From: Actinomycetota bacterium
GTDB lineage: Bacteria; Actinomycetota; Actinomycetes; S36-B12; CAIYMF01
Direction of reading: 5' to 3'
DNA: 64,000 bases
NCBI GenBank assembly: GCA_026393115.1
Contig: JAPLAU010000023.1
Coordinates: forward strand, 1-64,000
Part shown: piece by piece, positions 6,180 through 36,607 of the stretch
Layout of the letters: every line of letters begins with the position of its first letter
Position numbering within the stretch: position 1 is the first letter of the stretch
Made by a program: the position numbers and the translations under genes
The notes under the pieces: model-generated
Databases searched by the model: none
Told to the model about the DNA's origin: nothing
What the model saw: the letters and a program-made list of their open reading frames with translations, nothing else

Positions 6180-7574
6180 TCACCAGAAGGTAATCGGACC
6201 AGCGTTCTGTTGACGACCGATCGGTCCGGGATCAATGAGGACGCCGTCTTCGACGACAACGGTGCCCCTCATGAGAACCGTCCGCGTCCATCCGGTGACC
6301 GACATTCCCTCATAGGGGGTGTAGTCGGTATCCATATGCAGATCGCCAATGGTGACGATACGTGTCAGGTCAGGATCGAAGATGACGAGGTCAGCATCGG
6401 ACCCTGGCGCAATGGCTCCCTTGCGCGGGTACAAGCCATTGAGCCGTGCCGGGTTGCTGCACATCATTCGAACAAAGTCTTCAGGCGAGATTTGTCCACT
6501 GCGGACGTACCGGTTCCACACCACGGACAATCGGGTTTCGACTCCGGGTAGTCCGTTGGGCATGATCCGCACATCGTGACTGCACTCTTCCTTCTGGCTG
6601 GTGCTGTAGCAGCAGTGGTCACTGCCGATCGTGTGCACTCGACCAACGGCGAGTCGATCGCCGAGGGCCGCCACCGTCTTGGCACTACGAATTGGAGGAC
6701 AGCACACGAAACGTTCGGGAAACTGACCCTCGTAGCACGTTTCATCCAGCACCAGATAGTGCGGGCACGTTTCTGAATATGCTCGTATTCCTCGTAGCCG
6801 TGCGGCATCAACAAGGTCGACGGCACTCGGAATTGATTGATGCACGAAATAGACGGGTGCTCCCGTGCGCTCGGCAGCCCCCAGCACCTGAGCCACTGCG
6901 GACTCCTCAGCGGCCTCGGGTCGACTTGCTGCCATGCCGCGTGCACCGATTCGACCCTCTGCCTCTGCCTGAGCTTGGGCGGCCTCAATGGCCTCATTCT
7001 CTTCGGCATGGATGTAGGTGAGCCCGGACACCTGAGTCAGTGCACGCATTACCGACTCGATCGTGTCAATTCCGACCATGAGTTCGCCGCGGTAGGTCGT
7101 AAAGAGTTTGATCGTGCGCACACCGCGCTTAGCCATCTGACTGATCGTCTCGGCGGCGTCGACCGGAGCGGAGCTCAGGCAACCATGAAATGCATAGTCA
7201 CACCGTGATTCGGCCCCTGCGGCGATCTTGTCGTCGAGTGCCTCAATCGGGTCTTGCCCCACTGCCGGTATCGCAAAATCAATCACGGTGGTTGTGCCAC
7301 CAGCAAGGGCAGCGAGTGAGGCAGTTTCGAAGTTGTCGCACGTCATGAAGGCGCCGAGCGGGATCAACAAGTGGAAATGTGGGTCGACTGCACCGGGCAT
7401 CACAATCTTGCCAGCGGCATCGATGATGCGAGCCGCTCCAAACGTCGACAGGTCAGTATCGGCGTCGACAATCGCGGCGATGCGCTCTCCCGATACCACC
7501 ACGGTGGCCGGTCCTGACCATGAGTCAGTGACGACGGTTCCCCCTGCAATGACTACGTCTGGTGCGGAAGTCAT
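6180..7574 (-). CDS. Dihydropyrimidinase/hydantoinase-family cyclic amidohydrolase (copy 1)
   Basis: A 464-aa TIM-barrel amidohydrolase that opens cyclic ureides or imides to N-carbamoyl or amide products. The binuclear metal set is present: H66 and H68 (DPHFHL), carboxylated K156 (TIKLFTTY), H189 (YIHAEE), H245 (FVHQS) and D319 (GSDH). AAAGGAA precedes the ATG. It is divergent from the Rieske oxygenase operon. It differs clearly in sequence from the second dihydropyrimidinase-like gene 12 kb away, so the two are not a recent duplication and may act on different rings. Substrate unknown. Confidence 0.88.
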   Translation of the reverse strand: MTSAPDVVIAGGTVVTDSWSGPATVVVSGERIAAIVDADTDLSTFGAARIIDAAGKIVMPGAVDPHFHLLIPLGAFMTCDNFETASLAALAGGTTTVIDFAIPAVGQDPIEALDDKIAAGAESRCDYAFHGCLSSAPVDAAETISQMAKRGVRTIKLFTTYRGELMVGIDTIESVMRALTQVSGLTYIHAEENEAIEAAQAQAEAEGRIGARGMAASRPEAAEESAVAQVLGAAERTGAPVYFVHQSIPSAVDLVDAARLRGIRAYSETCPHYLVLDETCYEGQFPERFVCCPPIRSAKTVAALGDRLAVGRVHTIGSDHCCYSTSQKEECSHDVRIMPNGLPGVETRLSVVWNRYVRSGQISPEDFVRMMCSNPARLNGLYPRKGAIAPGSDADLVIFDPDLTRIVTIGDLHMDTDYTPYEGMSVTGWTRTVLMRGTVVVEDGVLIDPGPIGRQQNAGPITFW

Positions 7575-7847: not shown

Positions 7848-9188
7848 GTGACCCTCATCGGAGACAGTGCAAACACCCGCGCGGACCTCTCTACCACCGA
7901 CCGCCTCAGGTCGCTCGTGCTTGAGGACCGCGTGCACCGGAACGTCTATGTCGATGAATCCATCTTCGCCCTCGAAATGACATGGGTATTTGGTCAATCG
8001 TGGATGTACGTGTGTCACGAGTCGCAAATACCTGCTCCCAACGACTTCTTTTCCACTCGCATGGGACTTCGCCCTGTCATCGTCAGCCGCGACAAGAAGG
8101 GCGAACTGCACGTCCTGATGAATCGATGCACCCATCGAGCCGCAACAGTGTGCCGTGTCGAGTCGGGTAACGCGGCCAGCTTCCAGTGCCCGTATCACGG
8201 CTGGACCTTCCGTAACGATGGCACTCTCACCGGGGTGCCCTGGCCAGACGGCTACGCACCCGAGTTCTCCAAGTCTGACTGGGGGTTGGCCCACGCGAGG
8301 GTGGAGTCATACCGGGGATTCGTGTTTGCCACGTTGAACCCTGACTCTCCATCACTGACTGAGCACCTTGGCCCGGCCGCTTCCTACCTCAGTCATTGGA
8401 TCGACCGGTCGCCCGGCAATGACATCGTGCTCAAGAGTGGTGCCAACCGGATGGTCTACGAAGGAAACTGGAAACTGGCCTACGACAATTCGGCCGATGG
8501 CTACCACCCTGCCTTCTCCCACCGTTCGCTGCTGAAGATGGCGGGACGGGAGGGGGAATCGAAAGACATGGTCTACTTCGGCGGTTCGCCCGACGAAGGT
8601 GCCATGACGGTGCGCGACCTAGGCAACGGGCACACGCTGCTCGACCAGCGGCCGACTTACTTTGCAGAGGGAGGCAACGCCCCCGTTCCTGGTTCCTTCT
8701 GGGCGCAACAGCGAGTGGCCCCCGGTCGCGAGAGGTTGGAAGCGGAGATTCGTGAATCGTACGGAGACGATGCTGACCGACTTCTCGACCTGACCGTGGG
8801 CGCACAGATGAATCTCAACATCTTCCCGAATCTGCTCATCATCGGAAATCAGGTGCAGGTCATCGAGCCGCTAGCGGTGAATCGAACTCAACTGACGTGG
8901 TGGTCGACCACCCTTTCCAACATGCCGGCCGAGATCAACGCCATGCGGATGCGCCACCAAGAAGACTTCCCGAGTTTCGGTGAACCAGACGATCAGGCGA
9001 ACTTCGAAGAAGCGCAGCGAGGGTTAGCAATCCCCGAGGTTGAGTGGGTTCTGTTCAATCGCGGCTACGGAATCCCTGGACGACAGATACTCGACTCCGA
9101 TGGAGTGCAAACTGCTCCGGTGACCGACGAACTGCCTATGCGTGCCTACTACGCCGAATGGTTGCGTCGATTGGAGGCAGCGCCGTGA
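7848..9188 (+). CDS. Rieske non-heme iron aromatic-ring-hydroxylating oxygenase, alpha subunit
   Basis: A protein of 446 aa. The N-terminal Rieske [2Fe-2S] domain has C94-T-H96 and C114-P-Y-H117-G-W. The catalytic domain has the mononuclear iron motif D217-G-Y-H220-x4-H225. It would insert O2 into an aromatic or N-substituted substrate, or remove an N- or O-alkyl group, together with the beta subunit encoded next. GTG 7848 is chosen because GAGGTG (7836-7841) is 6 nt upstream. GTG codons at 7821 and 7839 are in frame but poorly placed. No ferredoxin or ferredoxin-reductase gene is in this operon, so electrons must come from elsewhere. Confidence 0.9.
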   Translation: MTLIGDSANTRADLSTTDRLRSLVLEDRVHRNVYVDESIFALEMTWVFGQSWMYVCHESQIPAPNDFFSTRMGLRPVIVSRDKKGELHVLMNRCTHRAATVCRVESGNAASFQCPYHGWTFRNDGTLTGVPWPDGYAPEFSKSDWGLAHARVESYRGFVFATLNPDSPSLTEHLGPAASYLSHWIDRSPGNDIVLKSGANRMVYEGNWKLAYDNSADGYHPAFSHRSLLKMAGREGESKDMVYFGGSPDEGAMTVRDLGNGHTLLDQRPTYFAEGGNAPVPGSFWAQQRVAPGRERLEAEIRESYGDDADRLLDLTVGAQMNLNIFPNLLIIGNQVQVIEPLAVNRTQLTWWSTTLSNMPAEINAMRMRHQEDFPSFGEPDDQANFEEAQRGLAIPEVEWVLFNRGYGIPGRQILDSDGVQTAPVTDELPMRAYYAEWLRRLEAAP

Positions 9189-9763
9189 CGCAGACTCCCG
9201 TCCCGTGGGACACCTCAGCGTACGAGCGTCTCGCTCGCGATGTTGCGGTGCTTAAGGGCGCGGCGCCCGAGCCCGATCAGGCACTGCGCGCATTCGCCGA
9301 ATCGGTGCTCTTCAGCGAGGCTCGACTGCTGGACAACTCGGACTTCGACGAGTGGCTCGAGAACATGACGCCCGACTGCCTTTATTGGGTTCCGGCGCAC
9401 CACGAAGGCGGTGAGCCCGAGAGCGAAGTCTCGCTTGCCTTTGACGACTACCGGCGGCTTACTGACCGGGTCTACTGGCTCAACACCGGACTCGTCTTCG
9501 CACAAATTCCAGCGTCGCGCACCCGCCGGGTGATTTCCAACGTCGAGGCGTGGCAGGGCGACGAGCCGGGACTTGTCTTTGCGCGTTCGAATTTCCATCT
9601 CCATGAATTCCGTGCCGGACGACAAAGACTGCTGTCGGGCTGGTACGGGCACGTCCTCGAAAACTGCACCTCACGTGAGGTGTACCAAGCAAAGATCCGA
9701 ACCAAGATCGTCTTTCTGACCGACTCAGACCAGGGCCACGACAACCTCACGATTCTGTTCTGA
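9185..9763 (+). CDS. Rieske oxygenase, beta (small) subunit
   Basis: A 192-aa protein of the ring-hydroxylating dioxygenase beta family (SnoaL-like cone fold). It shows the usual features: DEWLENMTPDCLYWVP near the N-terminus, a central SRTRRVISNVEA segment, and a C-terminal YQAKIRTKIVFL strand. GTG 9185 overlaps the alpha stop by 4 nt (GTGA), so the subunits are translationally coupled. It has a structural role in the alpha3beta3 hexamer. Confidence 0.88.
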   Translation: MTQTPVPWDTSAYERLARDVAVLKGAAPEPDQALRAFAESVLFSEARLLDNSDFDEWLENMTPDCLYWVPAHHEGGEPESEVSLAFDDYRRLTDRVYWLNTGLVFAQIPASRTRRVISNVEAWQGDEPGLVFARSNFHLHEFRAGRQRLLSGWYGHVLENCTSREVYQAKIRTKIVFLTDSDQGHDNLTILF

Positions 9764-9783
9764 ACTTCCCCGAAAGGAACACC

Positions 9784-11292
9784 ATGGCAAAATCCAAGTC
9801 GAAGGGCTTCATCTCACGGCACGGTCTGTGGGATGCAGAGCAGGAGGCCGCGGCCGAAGTCGTTCGTCGTCGGATGGCCGACCTTGATCTCGAGGTAATT
9901 CGTCTCGCGTGGCCCGACCAGCACGGACTCATGCGCGGCAAATTCCTCACCCAAGAGTCGTGCGGGGCGGCGCTCATCGACGGCATGGAAATCACCATGG
10001 CGCCGTTCTTCTTTGACACCGCAAACGCCATTGTCTTCAACCCGTTCATTGCCGGCGGCGGCTTCGGGCTACCCGAGCTCACCGGTAGCCCCAACGTCTT
10101 CATGGTCCCGGATCCGACCACGTTCACCGTGCTGCCGTGGGCAGAGAAGACCGGGTGGATGATCGCCGATCTTTACATGCGCGATGGCACGCCGTTTAGG
10201 TTTTCGCCCCGAAACATCATGCGTAAAGCAGTCGCCGATCTTGAGGAAGCGGGCTACGGCTTCGTTGCAGGCCTGGAGATGGAGTGGTACCTCACCAAGA
10301 TTGTTGATGACACGCTGGAAACAGCGGGCCACGGTGGACCCGGTCAGCCAGCACCCCCGCCGATCGTTCGCCCTGTCGCGCGGGGTTACAGCTACCTGTT
10401 GGAAAATCACCTCGACGAGATTGAGGATGTTCTCGTCCCTCTGCGCCGTCACCTCAAGGCCCTTGATCTGCCGGTGCGCTCGATCGACGACGAGTGGGCG
10501 CCCAGTCAGGTCGAGACCACGTTCGACGTGATGACTGGCGTTCGCGCAGCTGACATGACTGCTCTCTACCGTCAGGCGACAAAGCAGGTCTGTCGGAGAA
10601 TGGGCTACCTTGCGACGTTCATGTGCAAGCCGGCACTTCCCGGTTTCTACGGCAGCGGTTGGCACCTGCACACCTCGCTGACCGACTTGTCGACGGGAGG
10701 CAACGCCTTTGTGCCCGAGCATGAGGGAGAGGTGCTCTCTGAGGTTGGTCGACACTACGTGGGTGGAACACTCGAGCATTCGATTGCGGCCTCGGTGTTC
10801 ACCACACCCACCGTCAACGGTTATCGCCGTCGACGCCCATTCTCGCTGGCACCTGACCGTTCAACGTGGGGCGTTGATAACCGAGGCGCAATGATGCGAG
10901 TGCTCTCCGCAGGACCCGCCGACCGTTCAAGTCACGTCGAAAACCGGGTGGGGGAGCCGGCAGCTAACCCCTACCTCTACATGGCAGCGCAGATTGTGAT
11001 GGGCCTTGATGGCATCCGTAAGCGCACTGATCCCGGGCCGTTGAGCGACGAGCCTTATGTCGATGAGACTCGGCCACTGCTACCGGCCACGCTTGATGAC
11101 GCGGTCGATGCACTCGAGAGTTCTACGTTCTTCCGCGAGCAGTGGGGTGATTCCTTCATCGATTACCTCGTTGCGATCAAGCGTTGTGAACTTGGCCGCT
11201 TCAATGAGCACGTGCGCAGTCAGGAAAACCCATCCCAGTACATCGAGAATGTCACTGACTGGGAGCACTACGAGTATTTCGAGTTGTTCTGA
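9784..11292 (+). CDS. Glutamine-synthetase-like gamma-glutamyl ligase
   Basis: A 502-aa member of the GS superfamily. The catalytic domain has EMEWYL, GSGWHLHTSL (the GS metal/ammonia-site motif) and HVENRVGEPAANPYLYMAA near the C-terminus. A 15-residue basic extension precedes the fold. It is a paralogue rather than an ordinary GlnA. Relatives ligate glutamate to amines (PuuA, IpuC, and AtdA1 in the aniline dioxygenase system). Its position directly after Rieske alpha and beta recalls the aniline gamma-glutamylation/dioxygenation arrangement. GAAAGGA precedes the ATG. The amine substrate is unknown. Confidence 0.85.
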   Translation: MAKSKSKGFISRHGLWDAEQEAAAEVVRRRMADLDLEVIRLAWPDQHGLMRGKFLTQESCGAALIDGMEITMAPFFFDTANAIVFNPFIAGGGFGLPELTGSPNVFMVPDPTTFTVLPWAEKTGWMIADLYMRDGTPFRFSPRNIMRKAVADLEEAGYGFVAGLEMEWYLTKIVDDTLETAGHGGPGQPAPPPIVRPVARGYSYLLENHLDEIEDVLVPLRRHLKALDLPVRSIDDEWAPSQVETTFDVMTGVRAADMTALYRQATKQVCRRMGYLATFMCKPALPGFYGSGWHLHTSLTDLSTGGNAFVPEHEGEVLSEVGRHYVGGTLEHSIAASVFTTPTVNGYRRRRPFSLAPDRSTWGVDNRGAMMRVLSAGPADRSSHVENRVGEPAANPYLYMAAQIVMGLDGIRKRTDPGPLSDEPYVDETRPLLPATLDDAVDALESSTFFREQWGDSFIDYLVAIKRCELGRFNEHVRSQENPSQYIENVTDWEHYEYFELF

Positions 11293-12482
11293 TGAGCACT
11301 GCCTCTCTGCGTGAGCGTGACCGTCGCTGGAGCCTGCTTGACCAGGCGATGGCCAACGCCGGCCTCGACGCGGTCATCTTCATCGGAAACGATTACCGCG
11401 GACACAAAGGGACGCTGCGTTGGGTTGCTGATTACAACCTTGAGCACCGCAACGGTTCAGCGATTAAGCCCCGCGGTGGCGATGCGATTCTGGTTCTCCC
11501 AGGCAACCTCAGTACGCAACGTCACGACTCTGACTGGGTGAGCGACGTTCGCTTCCCCAAGCGAATGGTTGACGGGCTGGTCGACTTCTTGCGTCAGCAG
11601 ACTTGGGCTCGGACCGTCGGAATCATCGGTCAAAACCAAATCATGAGGGTGGAAGATCACCAGATCCTCACTGACGCTCTTCCTCGGATTACGTTCTCCG
11701 ATGCCAGTCACCTCTTTGAACAGGTCCGTGTTTCGAAGAGCGCCGAAGAACTCATCGGAGTGGAGGAGTCGGCGTACATTCTCGATCGCTGCTTCGACCG
11801 TTTGCTCGAGGTCGCCGCACCGGGGCGCACTGAGAGGGAAATCGCCGCAGAGATGTACCGCACGGCCACACTGCTCGGTGGGGAAGACACCCTCTTCCTG
11901 ACCATGCACACCGCCGAAAATGCGGCCAACGGTAAGTCCGGCGTCTCCTGGGGTGTCCCGCGCGATCGGGTGTTGCGAAGTTCAGATCTGTTCATCTTCT
12001 CGTTCGAAGTCACCGGACCCCGTGGCTACTGGACCGAGTTCTCGCGCATGGTCACCTTCCAGCGTCCCTCAGAGGAAATCGAGCACATGGCCGCCGCTGT
12101 GACCGATGGAATCGCCGCATCATCGGGCGCACTGGCGGAGGGAGTCGAGGAGCCCGCGCTCATTCAAGAACGCGTACTTCAGTCTGCCGATCGGTTCGGA
12201 GTCACCAGCGGCTACTGGTCGGGCCACAGCATCGGTCTCGACGTGCTGGAAGCACCGATGATTGGTGCCGACGTCGTCGACAACGACTTGAGCCAATCAA
12301 CAAGTGAGAAGCCCGTCCCTTGCAGTCCGGGATCGATCATTACCTTGCACCCCATGCTCTGGGATCCCCGTCATGAAGTAATGGGTTACATGGCCGACAC
12401 ATTCGTCGTCGAACAGGACGGCTGCCGTGTGCTGTCCACACATCCCACCAAGCTCTTCCAAGTCGCAGGAGGTAGTTCATGA
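11292..12482 (+). CDS. M24-fold (creatinase/prolidase-like) protein with altered metal ligands
   Basis: A 396-aa protein with a creatinase-type N-terminal domain and a pita-bread C-terminal domain. Prolidases use Asp, Asp, His, Glu, Glu as metal ligands. Aligning by motif, here the first two are E239 (FSFEV) and E249 (WTEFSR), the His is kept (H312 in SGHSIG), the first Glu is H353 (TLHPML) and the last Glu is A368 (GYMADTF). This pattern suggests a metal-independent hydrolase in the manner of creatinase, not a peptidase. ATGA overlaps with both neighbours place it firmly in the operon. It may cleave an amidine, ureido or amide bond. Confidence 0.8.
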   Translation: MSTASLRERDRRWSLLDQAMANAGLDAVIFIGNDYRGHKGTLRWVADYNLEHRNGSAIKPRGGDAILVLPGNLSTQRHDSDWVSDVRFPKRMVDGLVDFLRQQTWARTVGIIGQNQIMRVEDHQILTDALPRITFSDASHLFEQVRVSKSAEELIGVEESAYILDRCFDRLLEVAAPGRTEREIAAEMYRTATLLGGEDTLFLTMHTAENAANGKSGVSWGVPRDRVLRSSDLFIFSFEVTGPRGYWTEFSRMVTFQRPSEEIEHMAAAVTDGIAASSGALAEGVEEPALIQERVLQSADRFGVTSGYWSGHSIGLDVLEAPMIGADVVDNDLSQSTSEKPVPCSPGSIITLHPMLWDPRHEVMGYMADTFVVEQDGCRVLSTHPTKLFQVAGGSS

Positions 12483-14296
12483 CGTCCCAGTCGGTGGCCA
12501 TTGACCCCGTGCTCGCGTCGGTTCTGCAGAGGCGGGTCGAGGCAATCGCCAAGGAAATGGCGACCATGTTGATGAGGTCGTCGCGGTCACCGATCTTCAA
12601 TGAGATCGGCGACCTCGTGACGGTCGTGTTCGACTCGAAGGGACGAACCCTGGCTCAGGCAGAATTCGCAGCGATCATTGCCTTCGGTGCACAACCGCCG
12701 ATGGAGTACATCATCGAATTCTTTGGTGATGATGTACATGAGGGTGACGTCATCATCCACAACGACGTCTTCACACGCGGCAACCAGAACGCCGACACGG
12801 GAATCTACATCCCCATCTTCTATGACGGCGAGATCATCGCGTGGACGGCGAGCAAGGGACACCTAGCCGACATCGGTGGTATGACCGCCGGGGGATACAA
12901 CCCGAATGCCCGCGAAATCTGGCAAGAGTCACTGCGCATTCCCCCCGTCAAGCTGTACGACAAGGGCGAGTTCCGCAAAGACGTCTGGGGATTGATTGGT
13001 GCCAACATTCGTTTCGACTTCGTCATGGAAGACGTCAAGTCGATGATCGGCGTGTGTCAGGTCGGCAAGCGTCGAATGCTTGAGGTTCTCGATCGGTATG
13101 GCACCGACGTCTTCGGTGCTCACATGAACTACATTCTCGAAAGTTCTGAGCGTCAAGTACGGGCCGAACTCTCGAGGTGGCCTGACGGTTCGTACCGCGG
13201 CGAGAGTTGGATGGTCTCTGACGGCATTGACCCAACCAAGCACTACCGCATTGCCGTGGAGGTGACCGTACACGGAGACGAAATCACCTTCGACTTCAGC
13301 GACACCGACGACCAAGCTCCCGGAATTACCAATATGCCTGAGGCCTCAGCCATGGGCGCGATCCGTATTGCTTTCCTCATGCTGCTCGCGGCCGGTGGCC
13401 TGAAGATTCCGACGAACCAGGGGCTCTTCGCTCCCGTGCACACCGTGTTCCGGCCCGGTTCGCTGCTGTCACCCAACTTTCCTGCCGCGACGATCTTTGG
13501 CAATCAAATGTGCGACGAAGTTCTCGAGTCGATCATGCTGGCGATGAAGGATGCGCTCCCCGACCGCGTCACTGCCGGGTGGAACCAGTTCCTGTGCACT
13601 GCACTCAACGGAATCGACCCGCGCTCAGAAGAGCCATTCGTCATGTTCACTGTGTTTCAGCGCAACGGACCGGGCGCGATGCTCGGACACGACGGCTGGG
13701 ACGCTTTCGGATTTACCGGCACCGCCGGACAGATGCGCTCGCCTGACCCGGAAATGTTTGAACTGACTACGCCTCACTTCCTGGAGTACAGCGAACTCCT
13801 GCCCGACTCGGCAGGGGCCGGCGAATGGCGCGGAGGGCTTGGTACCCGTTCGGCCTGGCACATCCTTGGCCGCAATGAGATGGGTGTGACTCTCGGCGAC
13901 GACCTCGCCCATGAGGGTGCCACGCCGGCACCGGGACTGTTCGGCGGAAAAGACGCGGGCCTGAACATTTTGCGCATTGAGTTTCCCGACGGCCGGCACC
14001 AAGACTGGGGCTCCAAGGAGATCATCGAGTGGCTCCCTGAGGGAACACGCATTGTGTCCGAGTGTGGTGGCGGCGGCGGTTACGGTGATCCACTTCGCCG
14101 CGCGCCAGAGACCATCGCTGCTGAAGTGCGAGCCGGCTTACTTTCGGCCAAGCGAGCGCTCGATGACTACGGAGTGGTCATCGACCAACAGACGATGACC
14201 CTCGATGCTGCAGGTACTACCGCAGAGCGCTCAAGCCGGGGCCACGCGTCCACGGCAGATTTCGTGGAGTTCATGGGAACGGAGGGCGTGCTGTGA
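12479..14296 (+). CDS. hyuB: HyuB-type hydantoinase/oxoprolinase subunit B
   Basis: A 605-aa hydantoinase B family protein, seen from the N-terminal DPVLASVLQRRVEAIAKEM region, the EIGDLVTVVFD segment and the C-terminal GGGGYGDPLRR motif. With HyuA it forms ATP-dependent enzymes such as N-methylhydantoinase, 5-oxoprolinase or caprolactamase, and also some ketone carboxylases. A strong AGGAGGT precedes the ATG, which overlaps the M24 gene by 4 nt. The ring-opened substrate is not evident. The neighbouring dihydropyrimidinases and N-carbamoylsarcosine-amidase-like gene favour a hydantoin or lactam. Confidence 0.9.
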   Translation: MTSQSVAIDPVLASVLQRRVEAIAKEMATMLMRSSRSPIFNEIGDLVTVVFDSKGRTLAQAEFAAIIAFGAQPPMEYIIEFFGDDVHEGDVIIHNDVFTRGNQNADTGIYIPIFYDGEIIAWTASKGHLADIGGMTAGGYNPNAREIWQESLRIPPVKLYDKGEFRKDVWGLIGANIRFDFVMEDVKSMIGVCQVGKRRMLEVLDRYGTDVFGAHMNYILESSERQVRAELSRWPDGSYRGESWMVSDGIDPTKHYRIAVEVTVHGDEITFDFSDTDDQAPGITNMPEASAMGAIRIAFLMLLAAGGLKIPTNQGLFAPVHTVFRPGSLLSPNFPAATIFGNQMCDEVLESIMLAMKDALPDRVTAGWNQFLCTALNGIDPRSEEPFVMFTVFQRNGPGAMLGHDGWDAFGFTGTAGQMRSPDPEMFELTTPHFLEYSELLPDSAGAGEWRGGLGTRSAWHILGRNEMGVTLGDDLAHEGATPAPGLFGGKDAGLNILRIEFPDGRHQDWGSKEIIEWLPEGTRIVSECGGGGGYGDPLRRAPETIAAEVRAGLLSAKRALDDYGVVIDQQTMTLDAAGTTAERSSRGHASTADFVEFMGTEGVL

Positions 14297-16416
14297 GTAT
14301 TCGCATTGGCATCGACGTTGGAGGCACCTTTACCGACTTCCTTGTTGTCGAGGAAGACGGCACGCGTCAGGTTCACAAGACGAGTTCAGTTCCGTCGAAC
14401 CCAGCCGAGGCTGTCCTGAACGGCCTCGGAGAGATCGCTGCCTCTAGGGGCATCGGGCTTGAGGAGTTCTTGGCGAAGGTGTCGACGATCGTCCACGGCA
14501 CGACCGTGACGACTAACGCATTGCTCACGCGACGGGGAGCCAAGGTCGGGCTGCTGCTCACGGAAGGTTTCCGCGACACACTCACTTTGCGCGACGGCAG
14601 ACGTGAAGAACCGTACGACAACAGACTCGCCCAGCCAACGCCATTGGTGACTCGACAGTTAACGCTGCCTATCCGCGGACGGGTTGACTGGTCCGGTCGT
14701 GAAGTCGAGGAGCTAGTCACGGACGATGTCCGGGCGGCTGCGTCAATTCTGCGGAGCGAAGGCGTCGAGGCCGTAGCGATTTCGTTCATGCACTCGTACG
14801 CGAACCCAGCGCACGAAGACGCGGCGGCTGCGATCATCGCCGCTGAACTTCCCGATGTTTACTTGACCACCTCGCACGCTCTGCTCTCGCAGGTGCGCTA
14901 CTACCCGCGTACGTCGACAGCGGTGCTCAATGCCTACGCGGGTCCCATCATCAGCGACTACCTTGCAATGCTCACCGATCTACTTGAGAAATCGCATTTT
15001 GCCGGCCTGCTCCTTCTTATGCAGTCCAATGGTGGTGTAGCGACTCCCGAGGAGCTTGCCCGTCGCGCCGCACTGTCGTTGTTGTCGGGTCCGGCCTCGG
15101 GTCCAACAGCCGGGCTACTTGTCGTGCAGCCGCATCAGCTCGACCGGTGCGTCACTGTTGACATGGGCGGTACAAGTTTCGACGCCGCAGTGGTCGATCA
15201 CGGTGAACCACTTGTCATGACCGATGGCATCGTCGACCGGTGGGCGATCGCATTGCCTATGGTCGATATTCACACGATCGGAGCCGGTGGAGGCTCGATC
15301 GCACACGTCGACGAGGGCGGCCTACTCAGAGTGGGTCCGCAGAGTGCAGGAGCCAGCCCAGGTCCGGTGTGCTACGGCCGCGGCGGCACCCTGCCGACGA
15401 CCACTGACGCTGACGTTGTACTGGGTTTCGTCGATCCCGACACCTTCCTGCACGGAGGTATGCCTCTCGACCGCGACGCTGCCTATCGAGCGATCGAGGA
15501 ACATATTGCCAAGCCTCTCGGCCTCGACGTTCTCTCGGCGGCAGCCGGAATCTATGACGTGGTGAACGTGAACATGGCCGCTGGCGTTCGCGAAGTCACC
15601 GTCCGTCGAGGTCTGGATCCCAGAGACTTCCCCCTCGTTGTTGCCGGGGGAGCCGGGCCAGTGCACGCTGCCGCGATCGCTTCTGAACTGGGGGCGCCGG
15701 TTCTCATCACTCCCCGCGAATCGTCAATCTTCTGTGCGGCAGGAATGCTGGTGTGCGACTTCAAGCACGACTTCGTTCAAAGCTACAAGGCTCGACTGTC
15801 AGCGATGGACTTTGAAGAGTTGGCAGCGATGTGGGCACAGATGGCCGCGGCGGGACTCGAGATTTTGCGGGGAGAGGGATTGAGCGACGACTCTGCTTCC
15901 TTCTCGCCTGCGCTAGACATGCGTTACAAGGGCCAGTGGTATGAACTGATCGTGCCCCTCGGCGCCGAATCGATGCACACTCCCGATGTGGCCACGTTGA
16001 CCGATGCTTTCGGAACGATGCATGACCGCCTGTTCGGTTACCGAACCGATGACATGCCCATCGATGTGCTCAACGTCAGACTGACCGTCGTTGGAAGCAC
16101 GCCCAAACCAACGATGCGGCTATCGGACGACATCATGGAGACCGGCGATCCACGAATCGGAACCCGACAGATGTGGTCGACTATGCAGCGCTCGATGGTT
16201 GAGGTGGGAGTGTTTGACGGCAGACGCATGGGCCCGGGTGCCACTCTCGAGGGTCCGGCGGTGGTCGAACTGGGCACCACGTCCATTGTCGTTCCTGACG
16301 AGTTCGACCTCGTGGTCGATGACGCTGGCTCATTCGTCACAATCTTGCGTGAGCGAGCCGAGCAAGTGCGCAAGTCACTTGACGGGCTCACGGCCACGCC
16401 GGTGCTTCTTTCCTAG
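14293..16416 (+). CDS. hyuA: HyuA-type hydantoinase/oxoprolinase subunit A (ATP-binding)
   Basis: A 707-aa protein with the actin-like ATPase signature GIDVGGTFTDFLVV at the N-terminus, VHGTTVTTNALLTRRGAKVG, VDMGGTSFDAAVVDHG and GGGSIAHVDEGGLLRVGPQSAG, all diagnostic of the hydantoinase A/oxoprolinase family. It couples ATP hydrolysis to lactam or imide ring opening with HyuB. GTG 14293 overlaps the hyuB stop (GTGA). It is the last structural gene before the LuxR-type regulator. Confidence 0.91.
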   Translation: MSIRIGIDVGGTFTDFLVVEEDGTRQVHKTSSVPSNPAEAVLNGLGEIAASRGIGLEEFLAKVSTIVHGTTVTTNALLTRRGAKVGLLLTEGFRDTLTLRDGRREEPYDNRLAQPTPLVTRQLTLPIRGRVDWSGREVEELVTDDVRAAASILRSEGVEAVAISFMHSYANPAHEDAAAAIIAAELPDVYLTTSHALLSQVRYYPRTSTAVLNAYAGPIISDYLAMLTDLLEKSHFAGLLLLMQSNGGVATPEELARRAALSLLSGPASGPTAGLLVVQPHQLDRCVTVDMGGTSFDAAVVDHGEPLVMTDGIVDRWAIALPMVDIHTIGAGGGSIAHVDEGGLLRVGPQSAGASPGPVCYGRGGTLPTTTDADVVLGFVDPDTFLHGGMPLDRDAAYRAIEEHIAKPLGLDVLSAAAGIYDVVNVNMAAGVREVTVRRGLDPRDFPLVVAGGAGPVHAAAIASELGAPVLITPRESSIFCAAGMLVCDFKHDFVQSYKARLSAMDFEELAAMWAQMAAAGLEILRGEGLSDDSASFSPALDMRYKGQWYELIVPLGAESMHTPDVATLTDAFGTMHDRLFGYRTDDMPIDVLNVRLTVVGSTPKPTMRLSDDIMETGDPRIGTRQMWSTMQRSMVEVGVFDGRRMGPGATLEGPAVVELGTTSIVVPDEFDLVVDDAGSFVTILRERAEQVRKSLDGLTATPVLLS

Positions 16417-16509: not shown

Positions 16510-17616
16510 GTGGATTCCGAAGCACTTGGGAGAGTGGCTGGCGCTCTCTCAAGAGTCGCGAGCAGCCTGGCAGCCGTGACCTCGATCGACGAGGTGATGA
16601 CTGTTTACCTCAAAGAGGCGCGCAATGTTCTGCCCGCCCGTGCGGTCGGAATCTATCTGTCACGTTCTGCCGGCAGGCCTCCGCTCGCGCGCGCTGACGG
16701 GGTAAGCGAGTACTACCTCGAACGTTATGAAGAGGTCGGTCGCCAGATTGACCCAGTTCTCCATGCAGTCTTCGAAACCGGACAGACTCGCTCGTCGTCG
16801 CAGATCATGTCAGACGAGGAGTGGCGCGAGTCGACGTTCTATCGCGAAGTACTCTCCGTGCACGGTTTTCAGTCGACACTCAAGGCCCCCATCGTGGCCG
16901 AGGGTCGCATTATCGGCACTCTAAATTTCGGCGACCGTGAGTCTGACGCATTCGACCATCCGGGCGACCTTGAATTAGCCACCGCGCTAGGACACATCAT
17001 TGGGCTGGCGGTCACGATCGCAGGCCGCATCGAGGACCTTGAACGCGAACGCGCTCAGTTCCGTCAGGCTTTTGAATTCAGTGACGACGCCCTGATCATC
17101 TCTGACCTGCGCACCGGCTCACGTCATCCCAATGCTGCCGCTCGGCGGATTCTTGACCTACTCGATCCCGATGAGGCTGACCTGCTGCTCGAAGACCTCT
17201 TGACCATGAACCGGCAGAGGCGCCCCGCCGAAACTGCACACCTGGAGTCACAGGGCGTACGTCATCGGGTGGTAGTGCAACCGATCAGCCTCGGGAACGA
17301 TCGCAAAGTGCAACTGTCCCGCCTGACCCTTCGCGGAGGCGGTGATGCCGTGGCAATCGATGCTATTCCGTTCGCGCAGGCACTCCTGTCACCACGTGAA
17401 AGGCAGATCGCCGCCGCCGTCTCGTTGGGGCTGCATGATCAACAGATCGCTGACACGCTTGTTCTCAGCGTGCACACCGTGAAGCAGCACCTCAAGAGCA
17501 TCTACAAGAAACTCGGGGTCAACTCCCGCGTCGAACTGACGCGGCTCGTACTGATGAGACGCTCGCCCGATGCGCCGGCTGGCCCGAATCCGGACCAGCC
17601 GTCAAGCGACGAATGA
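16510..17616 (+). CDS. GAF-domain LuxR-type transcriptional regulator
   Basis: A protein of 368 aa with an N-terminal GAF-like sensor domain (about residues 20-170), a short linker (about 175-285) and a C-terminal LuxR helix-turn-helix (LLSPRERQIAAAV, then IADTLVLSVHTVKQHLKSIYKKLGV). There is no receiver phosphorylation domain, so it probably senses a small aromatic or heterocyclic ligand directly. Being 93 bp downstream of hyuA on the same strand makes it the likely regulator of the Rieske-Hyu operon. GTG 16510 follows GGGGAGGG. Confidence 0.87.
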   Translation: MDSEALGRVAGALSRVASSLAAVTSIDEVMTVYLKEARNVLPARAVGIYLSRSAGRPPLARADGVSEYYLERYEEVGRQIDPVLHAVFETGQTRSSSQIMSDEEWRESTFYREVLSVHGFQSTLKAPIVAEGRIIGTLNFGDRESDAFDHPGDLELATALGHIIGLAVTIAGRIEDLERERAQFRQAFEFSDDALIISDLRTGSRHPNAAARRILDLLDPDEADLLLEDLLTMNRQRRPAETAHLESQGVRHRVVVQPISLGNDRKVQLSRLTLRGGGDAVAIDAIPFAQALLSPRERQIAAAVSLGLHDQQIADTLVLSVHTVKQHLKSIYKKLGVNSRVELTRLVLMRRSPDAPAGPNPDQPSSDE

Positions 17617-18670: not shown

Positions 18671-19327
18671 CTACTTGTCTTTCGTCGAGTTGAGCGACAA
18701 CAGGTACTCGATGACCTCTGCGCTTGCTACCACGTCTGCGTACTTACCGTCCATGTCGACCAGATTCGCATCATGCTGGGTGGGGCTCCGGTCGCCGACC
18801 GCGTCTGACACCACGACTGAGCGGAAACCATAGGCATTGGCATCGACTGCCGTCTGACGTACGCACCCGGAGGTGCTGCACCCAACAGAAATGATGGTGT
18901 CGACTCCCATCGTCTGCAGCACTTGCTGAAACTCGGTGCCAATAAAGGCGCTGCTATGCCGTTTGGTCAGGATGTAGTCATTGGGCTCCGGCTTCACTCG
19001 ATCATCGATTTCAACCCATCGACTGCCGTGTTTAAGCCACCCCAGTGACGGGACCTTCTGGATGAAGAGTCCGCCATCGGCAAGGTCGGGGCGGAATGCG
19101 ACTCGGGCGTAGATGACTGGCACGTCGTTGGCGCGTGCGGCAGCGATCACGTCCTGCGCCACGGCGATGGGCTTATCGAGTAGGTCAGTCCCCAACGGGC
19201 TTTCGGGGTCGGTCATGCCGTACTGGAAGTCGATCACCAACACGCAAGGATGATCTCCGAATCCAGTACGGCCCCGCATTCCTAGGGCCTCGTAGTCGGC
19301 CAAAGTCTGCTCTGGTGTTACTGACAC
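18671..19327 (-). CDS. N-carbamoylsarcosine-amidase-like cysteine hydrolase (isochorismatase superfamily)
   Basis: A 218-aa protein with the catalytic triad D33 (LVIDFQYG), K122 (ILTKRHSSAF) and C155 (GCSTSGCVRQTA). The Cys context is close to N-carbamoylsarcosine amidase, which splits N-carbamoyl amino acids into amine, CO2 and NH3. The GTG start directly abuts the stop of the dihydropyrimidinase gene (TAGGTG), the natural partner: ring opening of a cyclic ureide gives an N-carbamoyl compound that this enzyme would hydrolyse. Ureidoacrylate amidohydrolase (RutB) is a related alternative. Confidence 0.85.
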   Translation of the reverse strand: MSVTPEQTLADYEALGMRGRTGFGDHPCVLVIDFQYGMTDPESPLGTDLLDKPIAVAQDVIAAARANDVPVIYARVAFRPDLADGGLFIQKVPSLGWLKHGSRWVEIDDRVKPEPNDYILTKRHSSAFIGTEFQQVLQTMGVDTIISVGCSTSGCVRQTAVDANAYGFRSVVVSDAVGDRSPTQHDANLVDMDGKYADVVASAEVIEYLLSLNSTKDK

Positions 19328-20734
19328 CTAGACCTTCTCAGGGCTCTTGCCAGGGATGAACTTTCCAATTCCTTCGGGTCCAACCCACTTTCCGCCGTCA
19401 ACCATGACGTTACCTCGCAAAATGGTGGTGACTGGGAAGCCGTCAGTCGTCCAGCCATCCCAGTTGCTGTAGTCGCAGTCAGAATGCAGGTTCTCACTCT
19501 GGTTGAAGGTGTGCGTGGTATCGGGGTCCATGATGATGATGTCCGCGTCGGCGCCGGGTCGCAGAACTCCCTTGGTTCCGTAGATACCGAACAATTTGGC
19601 CGGGGCGGCAGACGTCATTTCGACGAAACGTTCAATGGACAGGTTGCGCTTCTTGACTCCCTCAGACCAGAAGATGGCCATCCGGGTCTCGACACTGTTC
19701 GTGCCACCCGTGACATTGTCGACAGTGTCTCCAGCCAACTTGCGATCAAGAGGAATCGTGAAGTCGTCACTCGCCATCGTGTGCAGGCGCCCATCAGCGC
19801 AGGCATCCCACAACACGTTGCGATGCTCGATCGGCTTGTTGGGTGGGTAGTTCATGTAGCGCTGTCCTTGCTCCTGCTCGTAAAGGCTGGGGTCAAAGAC
19901 CAGATTCGGGTGCAGCGTCTCGGCAAATACATCAACGCCCTGCAACCGGGCCTCGGTGATGGCTTCGACGGACTCTTTGGCGCTCACGTGCACGATGTAG
20001 AGGGGTGAGCCAGTTCGCCGAGCGAGGAGAAGCATTCGCCGAACGGCTGCCTCTTCGGCTAGCGGTGGGCGAGCCTCACCAATGTTCCAGAACTCAGGAC
20101 GACCGTCTGCGTAGAGCTTGCGGATGTTGTAGTCGATGATGCACTCATCTTCACAGTGCACCATCGTGATGCCGCCGTGCTTCTCGGTGGCGAGCATCGC
20201 CTGGTAGATGCGGCCATCGTCTGACATGAGTCCACCGATTGTGGGGCTGCCCTTGAACGCGGTGAAGAACTTGAATGACACGACACCGCCGCTGATGCAG
20301 TCCTTGAACTCGTCGGGGGTGGTGAGGGGCCAGTCACCTGAGACGATGGCGTGCATTGCGTAGTCGGAGTCTGGGTTCTGCGCAGCGGTGTGCGCCAGTT
20401 TCTCTTCGACGGACTTGATGAGCGAGTCCTCGGGAGCCGACATGGAGAAGTCAATGTACGTGGTGGTGCCGCCGTAGATACCGGCACGCGATCCAGCCTT
20501 AGCGGATTGAGCGGTCATGGCCTCGGAGATCGAAAGGTCATAGTGGACGTGCGTGTCAATGCCGCCAGGCAGCACGTACTTGCCGGCTGCGTCGATAACC
20601 TTTGCCGCCCCATCACTTTCCAACTGGCCGTGCACAGAAAGCGCAACGATCTTCTCGTCCTTCACCGCAACGTCGAGGGGGTAGACCCCGTGCTCGTCCG
20701 CGACCATTCCGTTCTTGATGAGTAGGTCGTACAT
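19328..20734 (-). CDS. Dihydropyrimidinase/hydantoinase-family cyclic amidohydrolase (copy 2)
   Basis: A 468-aa amidohydrolase with the full metal set: H62 and H64 (DTHVHYD), carboxylated K155 (FKFFTAFKG), H193 (VHCEDE), H249 (VHVSAKE) and D323 (ASDDFT). The FKFF context is typical of true D-hydantoinases/dihydropyrimidinases. The ATG at 20734 is preceded by GGAGGAG. It heads the operon with the carbamoyl hydrolase and MDR genes. It is expected to hydrolyse a cyclic ureide to its N-carbamoyl acid. A TTGTATG-type operator candidate lies about 75 bp upstream. Confidence 0.9.
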   Translation of the reverse strand: MYDLLIKNGMVADEHGVYPLDVAVKDEKIVALSVHGQLESDGAAKVIDAAGKYVLPGGIDTHVHYDLSISEAMTAQSAKAGSRAGIYGGTTTYIDFSMSAPEDSLIKSVEEKLAHTAAQNPDSDYAMHAIVSGDWPLTTPDEFKDCISGGVVSFKFFTAFKGSPTIGGLMSDDGRIYQAMLATEKHGGITMVHCEDECIIDYNIRKLYADGRPEFWNIGEARPPLAEEAAVRRMLLLARRTGSPLYIVHVSAKESVEAITEARLQGVDVFAETLHPNLVFDPSLYEQEQGQRYMNYPPNKPIEHRNVLWDACADGRLHTMASDDFTIPLDRKLAGDTVDNVTGGTNSVETRMAIFWSEGVKKRNLSIERFVEMTSAAPAKLFGIYGTKGVLRPGADADIIIMDPDTTHTFNQSENLHSDCDYSNWDGWTTDGFPVTTILRGNVMVDGGKWVGPEGIGKFIPGKSPEKV

Positions 20735-20773
20735 AGCGTTCTCCTCCAGTGTGAGCGATGGATGTCGTGGGCA

Positions 20774-20815
20774 CACAATCTTGTGAAGATATCCTGCTAC
20801 GAGCGTTGTATGTAG
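20774..20815. promoter_or_regulatory. Candidate operator region upstream of the dihydropyrimidinase-2 operon
   Basis: TTGTATGTAG (20806-20815) matches the first seven bases of the recurrent TTGTATRCAA element. CACAA-TC-TTGTG (20774-20785) is a small inverted repeat nearer the gene. Both lie in the 113-bp gap before the minus-strand operon. No clear -35/-10 pair was found. Confidence 0.4.
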
Positions 20816-20847: not shown

Positions 20848-22092
20848 CTAAACCGCACCGGCGTCTCGGAGCGCTTGGAATTCTTCGTCCGAGAGCCCCA
20901 TTTCGGTGAGATAGAAGTCATCGTTATCTCTTCCGATCGGACCGCCGAGATTACGAACGCCTCCCGGTGTAACCGACATGCGCGGGTGGACGTGAACCGT
21001 CGATGTAGGACCGAGGTCTGGGTCGTCCACCATCTGAAGAAGATTACGCGCTTGGAAATGCGGATGATGGGCAATCTGAGCAATGTTATTGACCGGCGCA
21101 CCGGCAACCTCGAACTCTTCGAAGAGCTCCAAAACGCGGTCGGTGGAAGTCTGACCCATCCAGCCGCCGATCTCGTCATCCAACGCATCAACGTTGGCCC
21201 GACGAGTCGCGTTGTTGATAAATCGAGGATCGGTCACAAGATCCTCGCGGTCCATGGCTCGGAACAGTCGCTCGACAATCCCCTGGGTGCCACCGGAAAT
21301 GGCGATCCAGTCTCCGTCAGCGGTCTGGTAGGCGTTACGGGGAGCGAGATCCCCGAGTCGATTGCCGCTGCGCTGACGAACGAGGCCGAGCTTTTCGTAG
21401 TCGAGCATGAGGTAGTCGATCAGTCGGTAGTTTGCCTCGATGATCGCGTTATCGATCACCTGACCTGTTCCGCCACCGACATCGCGCCAGTAAACCGCGG
21501 CCAAAATTGCCATCGCTCCAGCGAGCGCTGTGACTCCGTCTGCCAGCGGATATCCAGAGATAGAAGGCGCGCGATCCTCGGCCCCACTCACAAAGGCCAG
21601 ACCGGCAAATGCTTCGGCGAGGGTTCCGAACCCCGGTTTGCGTGCAAACGGTCCGGTTTGCCCATAGCCGGAGGTGCGCAAGATGATCAAGCGCGGATTT
21701 GCCGCGTGCAATTCCTCTGGGCTCAGCCCCCACCGCTCCATGACACCGGGGCGGTAGTTCTCAACGAGAACATCGAAATCCTTGACCATGCGAAGGAGCA
21801 ACTGTTGGCCTTCGGGCTTGTTTAGCGCCAACGTGATGAGCCTCTTGTTGCGCGAAAGACCTTTCCACGCAAGCGAAGTACCCCCTACTTGAGATCCCCA
21901 GTGACGTACCGGATCACCGGTGCCAGGCAACTCCACTTTGACCACGTCGGCGCCGTAGTCGGCGAGGTACGTGGCAGCCCACGGGCCGGCCATCATCGTG
22001 GCCACATCGAGTATGCGCAAACCCTCAAGTGGGCCGCGTCCCACTGATGCGGGTTCGAGCGTTGTCGGGTCTAGGGGCGGTAGGTCACTCAC
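20848..22092 (-). CDS. CaiB/BaiF family CoA-transferase (copy 1)
   Basis: A 414-aa class III CoA-transferase. It has LEGLRILDVATMMAGPWAATYLADYGADVVKVE-type N-terminal motifs, the substrate/CoA loop SGYGQTGP, and the catalytic Asp at D185 (SGYPLADGV). It moves CoA between carboxylic acids without ATP. GTG 22092 has AGGAGG upstream and overlaps the end of the amidase gene by 8 nt. Amide hydrolysis would free a carboxylate that this enzyme then activates. The longer upstream frame is antisense and out of frame with the amidase and is not used. Confidence 0.9.
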   Translation of the reverse strand: MSDLPPLDPTTLEPASVGRGPLEGLRILDVATMMAGPWAATYLADYGADVVKVELPGTGDPVRHWGSQVGGTSLAWKGLSRNKRLITLALNKPEGQQLLLRMVKDFDVLVENYRPGVMERWGLSPEELHAANPRLIILRTSGYGQTGPFARKPGFGTLAEAFAGLAFVSGAEDRAPSISGYPLADGVTALAGAMAILAAVYWRDVGGGTGQVIDNAIIEANYRLIDYLMLDYEKLGLVRQRSGNRLGDLAPRNAYQTADGDWIAISGGTQGIVERLFRAMDREDLVTDPRFINNATRRANVDALDDEIGGWMGQTSTDRVLELFEEFEVAGAPVNNIAQIAHHPHFQARNLLQMVDDPDLGPTSTVHVHPRMSVTPGGVRNLGGPIGRDNDDFYLTEMGLSDEEFQALRDAGAV

Positions 22093-23455
22093 CGGGAGCC
22101 TCCTGTTGCTGCACCATGGGCGGGATGTGTTCGTGCCAATCAGTGTCACGCTGGTAGGCGGCGGCCACTTGGAAGAGCCGCGCCTCGTGCCACGATGCCG
22201 CTGAAAGTGCGATTCCAACGGGCATGCCCGACGCGGGGTGGAACCCGATCGGAAGCGACATGGTCGGGCCGGCATGCAGGCCCCAGGGGTAGGTGATGCG
22301 CCCCAGAGTTTGAGTGGTTGCACGACTGTCGTATCCCTCAGCAGCGGGGACGTCGATCGCGATCACCGGGGTCACTATCACGTCGATGTCTGACATGAGC
22401 GAATCAAGTGCGTGGCGATAACGTACGCGCCAGTCGAGCGAACGCGCGAGGTCGACTGCGCGAACGTCGAGCCCTGAAGAAATTCGGCCAAGTACATCCG
22501 GTGAGAAGTCGTCGGGACTCGCGGTGATGCGCTCTTCGTGGAATGCAGCCCCCTCGACTTGCACGATCCGAGTCCACGCCTCAAAGGCTCGAGCTTGTCC
22601 GAAGTCAGCAACACTGACCCGCTGAACTCCCTGAGTATCGAGCCAGGTCAGGAACTCGTCGACGCGCTGGGCGATGCCAGCGTCAAGATCGTCGTAGAAG
22701 AAGTCAGCAGGGATACCAACGGTGAGGCCTCGTAGGGGCTCATGCAGCAGGCTTGTTGCCGGTGCGCCGGCGCCCGGCCGAGCGTAGGGATCGAGCGGAT
22801 CGAAGTGGAGGAGTGCTTCGGCAAGTCGGGCAGCGTCCTCGGCTCGAATCGCCATCGGTCCGACGGCATCCTGGGTGTACGCCGCTGGGTACACACCCCG
22901 TGCCGAAATTGATCCAAAGGTAGGCCGCAGTCCGACGATCCCATTGACTGACGAGGGAATGCGTACCGAAGCACCGGTGTCAGTGCCAAGCGCTGCCTCG
23001 ACAATGCGAGCAGCCAGAGCTGCCCCGGAACCTCCGCTCGATCCACCGGGGATGCGGTCTAGGTCCCATGGATTGCGGCAGGCACCGTAGGTGAGGTTTT
23101 GGGTGGTTGCCCCCCAAGCGACCTCCGCCATGTTGAGCTTGGCGACGACCACGGCTCCTTGCTCTTCCATTAAGTCAATGCACGCCGCGTTGGTTGACGG
23201 CACGACATCAGAGCGAAAGGAGGCCCCGGCAGTGGTGCGCACTCCCGCGGTATCGATGTTGTCCTTCACCCCGACGATGAGACCGTGTAGCGGTCCGGCG
23301 GAATCTCCGGATGCGGCCCGTTGATCGAGCTCGAGTGCCCGCTCGCGCGATGAGTCGATCCACGTGATTACAGAGCGAACTCGACCATCGAGGGCTACGT
23401 AGCGGGCGCGGGATTGATCCCAACGCTCGACGCATGATTGACCACTCATTGACAC
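22085..23455 (-). CDS. Amidase-signature family amidohydrolase (copy 1)
   Basis: A 456-aa amidase with the Ser-cis-Ser-Lys triad: K64 (VGVKDN), the cis-Ser in GGSSGGS (about 140) and nucleophile S163 (GTDTGASVRIP). It hydrolyses a carboxamide to acid and ammonia. GTG 23455 is favoured because AAGGA is 6 nt upstream; ATG 23449 is two codons further in. It is the first gene of a two-gene operon with CaiB copy 1. Its promoter is well formed and overlapped by a TTGTATGCAA operator candidate. Confidence 0.88.
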   Translation of the reverse strand: MSMSGQSCVERWDQSRARYVALDGRVRSVITWIDSSRERALELDQRAASGDSAGPLHGLIVGVKDNIDTAGVRTTAGASFRSDVVPSTNAACIDLMEEQGAVVVAKLNMAEVAWGATTQNLTYGACRNPWDLDRIPGGSSGGSGAALAARIVEAALGTDTGASVRIPSSVNGIVGLRPTFGSISARGVYPAAYTQDAVGPMAIRAEDAARLAEALLHFDPLDPYARPGAGAPATSLLHEPLRGLTVGIPADFFYDDLDAGIAQRVDEFLTWLDTQGVQRVSVADFGQARAFEAWTRIVQVEGAAFHEERITASPDDFSPDVLGRISSGLDVRAVDLARSLDWRVRYRHALDSLMSDIDVIVTPVIAIDVPAAEGYDSRATTQTLGRITYPWGLHAGPTMSLPIGFHPASGMPVGIALSAASWHEARLFQVAAAYQRDTDWHEHIPPMVQQQEAPGE

Positions 23456-23483
23456 CGTCGATCCTTCCTGCCTGTGGGCAGTG

Positions 23484-23513
23484 ATTGTATGCAACGTACA
23501 GGGTCTCCGTCAA
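23484..23513 (-). promoter_or_regulatory. Promoter of amidase-caiB operon with overlapping operator
   Basis: The minus strand reads TTGACG (23508-23513), an 18-nt spacer, then TACAAT (23484-23489), close to the sigma-70 consensus. The near-palindrome TTGTATGCAA (23485-23494 on plus) lies on the -10, where a bound protein would block initiation. Confidence 0.7.
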
Positions 23514-34940: not shown

Positions 34941-34943
34941 TGT

Positions 34944-36545: not shown

Positions 36546-36574
36546 CTCAGATCCTCTCAGCGACGGGGTGTTCG

Positions 36575-36607
36575 GGTTCGGGGGTTTGTACAGGTTCGGG
36601 GGTTTGT
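36575..36607. repeat. Direct repeat (15 bp, two copies, 18-bp period)
   Basis: GGTTCGGGGGTTTGT occurs at 36575-36589 and 36593-36607, in the spacer between the receptor and ATPase genes. A partial third copy (GTGTTCGG) follows at about 36610. Function unknown. Confidence 0.75.

Follow-up and report, generated by a model that had tools for sequence, protein, structure and literature searches.

We analyzed a 64,000-nucleotide stretch of an Actinomycetota genome (hereafter the window; assembly GCA_026393115.1, contig JAPLAU010000023.1), in which the two subunits of a Rieske oxygenase of the aniline dioxygenase clade and a ligase resembling glutamine synthetase (GS) lie in one run with an M24-family protein and a HyuB-HyuA pair. 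The first three genes form a core that likely ligates glutamate to an arylamine, from which the oxygenase would then yield catechol. For the other three genes, hereafter the module, we tentatively propose a role in preparing the arylamine substrate. A core supplied by such a feeder module is the best explanation overall of the six genes, and we give it an even chance of being right.

The six genes have the same direction and span positions 7848-16416 of the forward strand, as delimited by open reading frames (ORFs) and Pfam matches. The oxygenase alpha subunit (7848..9188; PF00355 and PF00848) was assigned the GTG start at 7848 by alignment to the start of its counterpart on the Rhodococcus gordoniae plasmid pDND3A, and the beta subunit (9185..9763; PF00866) also starts with GTG, within a GTGA overlap with the alpha stop codon. 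They are followed by the GS-like ligase (9784..11292; PF00120, 247 bits), the M24 protein of creatinase/prolidase fold (11292..12482), the HyuB-type subunit (12479..14296) and the HyuA-type ATPase subunit (14293..16416). Adjacent genes overlap by 1-4 bases at four of the five junctions, and the remaining gap, between beta and the ligase, is 20 bases long, which makes co-transcription of the six genes very likely. An earlier note on this DNA had placed the ligase directly after alpha and beta, and the M24 protein and HyuBA next, and the ORFs and Pfam matches bear out this order. It had also reported amidotransferase-like and reductase genes as missing, which holds for the operon: no glutamine amidotransferase (GAT)-like, ferredoxin or ferredoxin reductase gene lies inside the six-gene run.

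Identity, phylogeny and motifs all place the oxygenase among the aniline dioxygenases. The alpha subunit is 62% identical to that of the aniline cluster of pDND3A, 51% identical to that of Delftia plasmid pNB8c, and 61-63% identical to the alpha subunits of actinobacterial plasmid aniline clusters; the corresponding values for beta are 48% (pDND3A) and 38% (pNB8c). For both alpha and the ligase, an identity of about 60% over the full length is far above chance. In a tree of 22 alpha sequences, the window protein falls within an 11-member clade of aniline-cluster proteins (support 98/98). The protein carries the Rieske motif CxH...CxxH, the motif DxYHxxxxH and the downstream motif DDxxNxE at positions 94, 217 and 381; we take the second to be the iron site and the third to be the acidic site, following the presumed roles of Rieske and mononuclear iron ligands. 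A loss of the third iron ligand was considered and rejected, as DDxxNxE is present. The 11-member clade includes alpha subunits from two Comamonadaceae metagenome-assembled genomes, which encode a GS-family protein (44% identity), alpha (48%) and beta without a GAT-like gene between them (loci L008, 9944-14808, and L009). In L008 a Fer2-type reductase follows these genes and the arylamine-loop residues differ. These genes are a deeper relative of the aniline systems.

The ligase leads to the same systems. It matches 682 records among 72,556 plasmids, and the top rows among the best 40 are GS-family proteins with 59-61% identity. The neighborhoods of four of these top records, on Rhodococcus pDND3A, Delftia pNB8c, a Dietzia plasmid and a Corynebacterium occultum plasmid, were read, and each has alpha, beta and GAT-like genes in a cluster. 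Among solved structures the 8wwu family scores best by a wide interval (587 bits; the next match has 166 bits). The PDB labels 8wwu only as a glutamine synthetase; we identified it as NpaA1 of Pseudomonas JS3066 by the residue numbers used in PMC11335346 and by a plasmid-encoded protein. In a tree of 22 GS-family proteins, the window ligase belongs to a nine-member clade (95/95) together with five aniline-cluster proteins, whereas the five other GS proteins of the genome and PuuA fall outside it; the exact placement of these outer proteins is unsure because they sit on long branches, as flagged by the program. In both the GS and the alpha trees, the window branches outside a tight actinobacterial group.

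The residues tied to arylamine binding in NpaA1 (PMC11335346) are largely retained. Phe75, Phe86, Glu234 and Trp235 (NpaA1 numbering) are kept in the window ligase, Val201 is replaced by Tyr as in AtdA1 (Tyr205), and the Glu232 site is Asp, as it is in six of the eight other cluster proteins compared. The same paper describes, for AtdA1, the Tyr at the Val201 site and a Trp at position 81, and it notes that arylamine ligases have lost flap Glu residues and Asp50, which is catalytic in StGS. On the basis of trees and pocket residues, an ordinary glutamine synthetase was rejected. The view of the earlier note that the protein is a ligase of the aniline type is therefore upheld: it groups with aniline-cluster and 1-naphthylamine ligases, away from PuuA, and not with GS types I or III. 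The lack of a GAT-like gene need not disable the system, since the GAT homolog NpaA2 is reported to be dispensable for conversion in the 1-naphthylamine system and gamma-glutamylanilide to be cytotoxic at high level (PMC11335346).

The operon encodes neither electron-transfer proteins nor a ring-cleavage enzyme; candidates occur in the rest of the assembly (3.5 Mb, 95% complete; the window contig is its contig C26). On C26, genome-wide searches located neither a Fer2 nor a Reductase_C domain, nor anything matching the GAT-like protein of pNB8c. The seven Fer2 matches of the genome are five small subunits that also carry Fer2_2, one molybdopterin formate-dehydrogenase-like protein and one RACo protein. 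The best match to the GAT-like protein is only 32% identical and lies on other contigs; at C4:4225-5887, a GS-family gene adjoins a stretch with this identity, and the two possibly belong to a gamma-glutamyl-amine pathway. Within the window, where the family-library scans covered part of the ORFs, the one reductase with NAD_binding_1 and FAD-binding domains is a ferric-reductase-type membrane protein without a 2Fe-2S domain (537-2537, scanned from 1173); this search was confined to the scanned window ORFs. The single Reductase_C protein, on contig C25, is nearest to the ferredoxin reductases HcaD and AndAa, with scores below their cut-offs. Contig C17 carries two tandem catechol 2,3-dioxygenases above the curated cut-off. 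Their neighborhood includes genes of the hydratase/decarboxylase type and one for an HcaC-like Rieske ferredoxin that scores under the cut-off of its model, and no Rieske oxygenase was recognized among the nine C17 ORFs scanned. The C17 ferredoxin, the C25 reductase and the C17 dioxygenases are plausible unlinked partners of the oxygenase studied here. The earlier statement that electron-transfer partners are missing thus stands for the operon but not for the genome, where unlinked candidates for both a Rieske ferredoxin and a ferredoxin reductase exist. Directly behind the two C17 dioxygenases (L092, 12996-17208) lie PPDK_N, PEP-utilizers-domain and His_Phos proteins; the first two may be a split phosphoenolpyruvate-synthase-like pair that phosphorylates an aromatic compound.

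The module has several unusual features. HyuA retains both phosphate-binding motifs (DVGGTFTD at 8 and DMGGTSFD at 290). The best solved-structure match of HyuA and HyuB is caprolactamase (6YRA), followed by N-methylhydantoinase, in a comparison set that held no experimentally proven 5-oxoprolinase. Caprolactamase is also the best of the NCBIfam models, with scores of 689 and 370 against an equivalog cut-off of 1000. The metal site of HyuB consists of Asp45, Gln103, Asp106 and His128 and so departs from the Asp-His-Asp-His pattern. In caprolactamase, subunit B is described as holding its metal with four ligands, three of them fully conserved in the family, and the H99A substitution abolished activity (PMC8453981). 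Gln, within the sequence GNQ, occupies the His99 site in all five M24-linked HyuB proteins, while His is found in all eight other HyuB proteins compared, as well as in the solved structures of caprolactamase, N-methylhydantoinase and the acetophenone carboxylase delta subunit. No M24 match (E 1e-3) was detected in the 11-18 kb around the eight His-type HyuB genes. The five M24-linked proteins form one clade in the HyuB tree (99/98), as do their counterparts in the HyuA tree (85/91).

The M24 protein has likewise lost the canonical dinuclear pattern, judged at the positions that we take to hold the metal ligands: the first Asp is Ser237, the second is Glu249, and GHxxGxxxHE reads GHSIGLDVLE. 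Creatinase-type M24 hydrolases are likewise not known to keep the canonical metal ligands. A fold predicted without an alignment reached a mean pLDDT (predicted local distance difference test) of 33 and was not used. The Gln site, the separate clade and the altered M24 ligands make the M24-linked HyuAB look like a distinct, putative ATP-dependent amidohydrolase pair. In the open-access literature searched, we found no description of a conserved M24-HyuBA partner with a Gln metal site for aniline systems.

The association of the module with aniline genes recurs in other genomes. In a sample of 394 genomes of the same class, alpha subunits with at least 60% identity occur in two, the genome studied here and G195 (61%), with the next match at 41%; M24 matches (E <= 1e-20) occur in the same two. 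Both searches are taken to have covered the same genomes, given their equal count and shared identifiers; they and the phylum search are samples, and the genome-contig scan detects close relatives only. The relatives of the window genome in the class sample (one of the same genus and seven more of the same family) have neither alpha nor M24, which suggests that the oxygenase and M24 genes were probably acquired. G195 carries a complete aniline cluster (IclR, alpha, beta, GAT, GS, ferredoxin, FAD reductase, a muconate-cycloisomerase-type protein and a catechol 1,2-dioxygenase above cut-off), adjoined by a divergent M24-HyuB-HyuA operon with an ATP-binding cassette (ABC) importer behind HyuA. 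Its module proteins share 51% (M24), 69% (HyuB) and 64% (HyuA) identity with those of the window.

A sample of 150 genomes from the family of G195 held no other close alpha, with one further match at 39%. Within its genus (g99, 57 genomes), M24 is found in three genomes (G195, G551 and G585; E <= 1e-20) and alpha with at least 91% identity in the same three, two other matches (39% and 32%) falling outside the clade. The module and the aniline cluster lie side by side in all three, and all three clusters have GAT, ferredoxin, ferredoxin reductase and catA matches. The chance of drawing the same three of 57 genomes at random is 1 in 29,260, a figure that overstates the evidence because related genomes are not independent. 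The Hyu genes of this genus are followed by substrate-binding protein (SBP) and ABC ATPase genes, confirmed by Pfam in G195 and G585 and represented by ORFs of matching size in G551.

Outside these genomes, close copies are rare. The best-ranked plasmid matches reach 28% for M24 (64 records, best 25 listed), 37% for HyuB (912, best 15) and 47% for HyuA (970, best 25); as a full-length copy like those of g99 would rank above these values, the module has no close copy in the plasmid collection. In a phylum sample of 396 genomes, M24 matches of only 28-30% were found in six further genomes. One of these regions, on contig C58 of G791 (L085, 5581-16205), holds an M24-HyuA-HyuB-SBP-ATPase-permease run with the same change at the HyuB metal site; no oxygenase or ligase is present in the 20 kb read. 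This run adjoins a phosphotriesterase-family gene. HyuAB is not a general companion of M24 genes, since none of four plasmid M24 neighborhoods contained it. Similarly, four regions that surround distant M24 genes from the phylum search (L081-L084; 17-19 kb each) gave no Hyu match (E 1e-5), and neither did the short loci L059 and L061. We conclude that the position of M24-HyuB-HyuA beside aniline genes is not that of a chance neighbor.

The history of this association can be read in two ways. In the GS and alpha trees, the g99 clusters nest with the module-free cluster of the C. occultum plasmid and the window lies outside, so that on both trees the label 'with module' has to change twice, and strongly supported branches force these two changes. 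Label shuffles required as few changes in 78 and 87 of 500 cases, so the module label is not significantly clustered. The arrangement also differs, with genes on one strand and overlapping in the window and divergent in g99. Either two gains or losses in the plasmid lineages are possible, two gains being the shorter story. Under either history, the module and the oxygenase are kept together wherever they co-occur.

For the core, the scheme that we favor starts with the ligase, which would spend ATP to join glutamate with aniline or another arylamine. The alpha-beta oxygenase would then attack the gamma-glutamyl anilide to give a catechol and release the nitrogen together with the glutamyl moiety, presumably as glutamine. 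Electrons would come from the unlinked ferredoxin and reductase genes, and catechol would be opened by the unlinked meta-cleavage cluster on C17. Upstream of the core, HyuA may activate with ATP, and HyuB open, an N-aryl lactam, a hydantoin or a similar cyclic amide or ureide, after which the M24 protein would hydrolyze the opened product and release the arylamine for glutamylation. We favor this upstream role because an importer lies behind the module in g99 and G791 and because plasmid aniline clusters lack the module. A precedent for such substrates is the iprodione route, which leads from an N-aryl hydantoin to 3,5-dichloroaniline. More specifically, though we hold this to be less likely than not, M24 and the Gln-site HyuAB could constitute a new kind of amidohydrolase, ATP-dependent and working in two steps, whose substrates are N-aryl cyclic amides or ureides brought in from outside. 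On two or more occasions it would have been combined with a gamma-glutamylation-dependent aniline dioxygenase into a full route from cyclic anilide to catechol.

Several observations weigh against this scheme. At position 81 the ligase has Ile, neither the Met of NpaA1 nor the Trp of AtdA1. No 2Fe-2S ferredoxin of the aniline type was found in the assembly, and the sole intradiol dioxygenase of the genome, at 163 bits, stays far under the catechol cut-off of 404. The loss of the ligand at the His99 site suggests that HyuBA may not be an ordinary lactamase or hydrolase. The linkage of module and aniline genes is known from two lineages only, the window and genus g99, and the aniline plasmids of Rhodococcus, Dietzia and Corynebacterium lack the module (as plasmids, chromosomes aside), so the core seems not to need it. 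The window does encode a ribose-type ABC importer (33906-37904, reverse strand; Peripla_BP_4, ATPase and permease), but with 25% and 35% identity it was rejected as the ortholog of the g99 importer. Finally, 14 further neighbors in the window (hydantoinases, isochorismatase, amidases and others) have no counterpart in the g99 stretches.

The absence of a GAT hydrolase from the window, with a best genome match of 32%, leaves room for two other uses of the module. The earlier note had proposed a closed glutamate cycle, in which a gamma-glutamyl product cyclizes to 5-oxoproline and HyuAB returns glutamate; this product would be the gamma-glutamyl anilide or its phosphate intermediate. The HyuAB family does contain 5-oxoprolinases, and a gamma-glutamyl ligase lies in the same gene run. 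However, among the proteins compared, which included no proven 5-oxoprolinase, caprolactamase and N-methylhydantoinase match best, Gln103 replaces a ligand that PMC8453981 describes as conserved in hydantoinases and oxoprolinases, and a GAT-like gene is also retained in the g99 clusters. The cycle also leaves unexplained the M24 protein and the importer of g99 and G791, as purely internal recycling needs no importer. It is an improbable route that explains less than a feeder role and is not supported as proposed. We regard as equally improbable that M24 or HyuBA hydrolyzes excess gamma-glutamylanilide in place of the GAT-like AtdA2. In its favor, the window lacks GAT and this compound is reported to be toxic at high level (PMC11335346), but the three g99 clusters carry both GAT and M24-HyuBA, and the HyuAB lactamases and hydantoinases described in PMC8453981 act on cyclic amides.

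A third alternative, unlikely in our view but less so than these two, is that M24-HyuBA handles an imported lactam or ureide that has nothing to do with the aniline route and shares its regulation with the oxygenase only because both substrates occur together, or that it is a chance neighbor. The G791 module, which shows no aniline genes within the 20 kb of sequence read, fits this alternative, as do the several other amide and ureide hydrolases of the window region. It is countered by the co-occurrence in the same three of 57 and two of 394 genomes, by the overlapping reading frames in the window and by the two changes of the module label that the trees need. We therefore retain the feeder module as the preferred explanation.

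If correct, this explanation has consequences beyond the window. Aromatic amines are widespread as pollutants and also arise when herbicides, fungicides and drugs are broken down, and the aniline clusters compared here begin at the free amine. A partner module that releases the amine would extend the pathway upstream, and its recurrence hints that aniline breakdown includes a feeder step not yet described. The module would then mark strains that mineralize N-aryl lactams or hydantoins. In addition, the HyuB clade with the Gln substitution offers a clean test case for metal use in ATP-dependent cyclic amidases.

Other genes surround the operon. A GAF-LuxR regulator lies behind it (16510..17616, forward strand), whose position makes it a possible regulator of the operon. 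On the other side, a D-hydantoinase/dihydropyrimidinase is encoded divergently (6180..7574, reverse strand; TIGR02033, 415 bits against a cut-off of 393), its link to the operon being unproven; no match to it (E 1e-10) was found in the g99 stretches L046, L063, L064 and L065. More generally, the window is rich in amide and ureide hydrolases, with this D-hydantoinase, an isochorismatase-type hydrolase, a second amidohydrolase, two amidases and a urease-alpha-like protein, at sites that include 6180-7574(-), 18671-20776(-), 22085-23494(-), 44109-45827(+) and 52743-54149(-). CoA-transferase and HMGL-like genes are interspersed among them.

Compared with known systems, HyuA and HyuB are closest to caprolactamase CapAB (PMC8453981, 6YRA), with which they share the conserved ATP motifs; unlike CapAB, HyuB has Gln at the His99 site, and the scores fall far below the NCBIfam equivalog cut-offs. 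The M24 protein belongs by profile hidden Markov model to the family of ectoine hydrolase DoeA and creatinase, with weak structure matches to these behind prolidases and aminopeptidase P, but it scores 42 bits against the DoeA cut-off of 613 and has no close known relative. The G791 module is of the same type as those of the window and g99, with M24 linked to a Gln-bearing HyuAB and then SBP, ATPase and permease; it differs in its HyuA-HyuB order, in an identity of 25-48% and in standing without oxygenase or ligase over 20 kb. With NpaA1-A5 of Pseudomonas JS3066, the source of the best structure match, the ligase has in common the tunnel aromatics Phe75, Phe86 and Trp235 (PMC11335346), whereas Tyr replaces Val201, Ile replaces Met81 and alpha is only 45% identical. 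The aniline dioxygenase systems (AtdA1-A5, TdnQTA1A2B and DcaQ type) have the same GS-like ligase and alpha-beta oxygenase at 38-62% gene-by-gene identity (pNB8c, pDND3A). The window cluster lacks their GAT, ferredoxin, reductase and catA genes and adds M24-HyuB-HyuA. Judged from their sequences, oxygenase and ligase together add to the aniline dioxygenase type a new member with a reduced gene set, whose ligase is a putative gamma-glutamyl arylamine ligase of the AtdA1/TdnQ/NpaA1 type.

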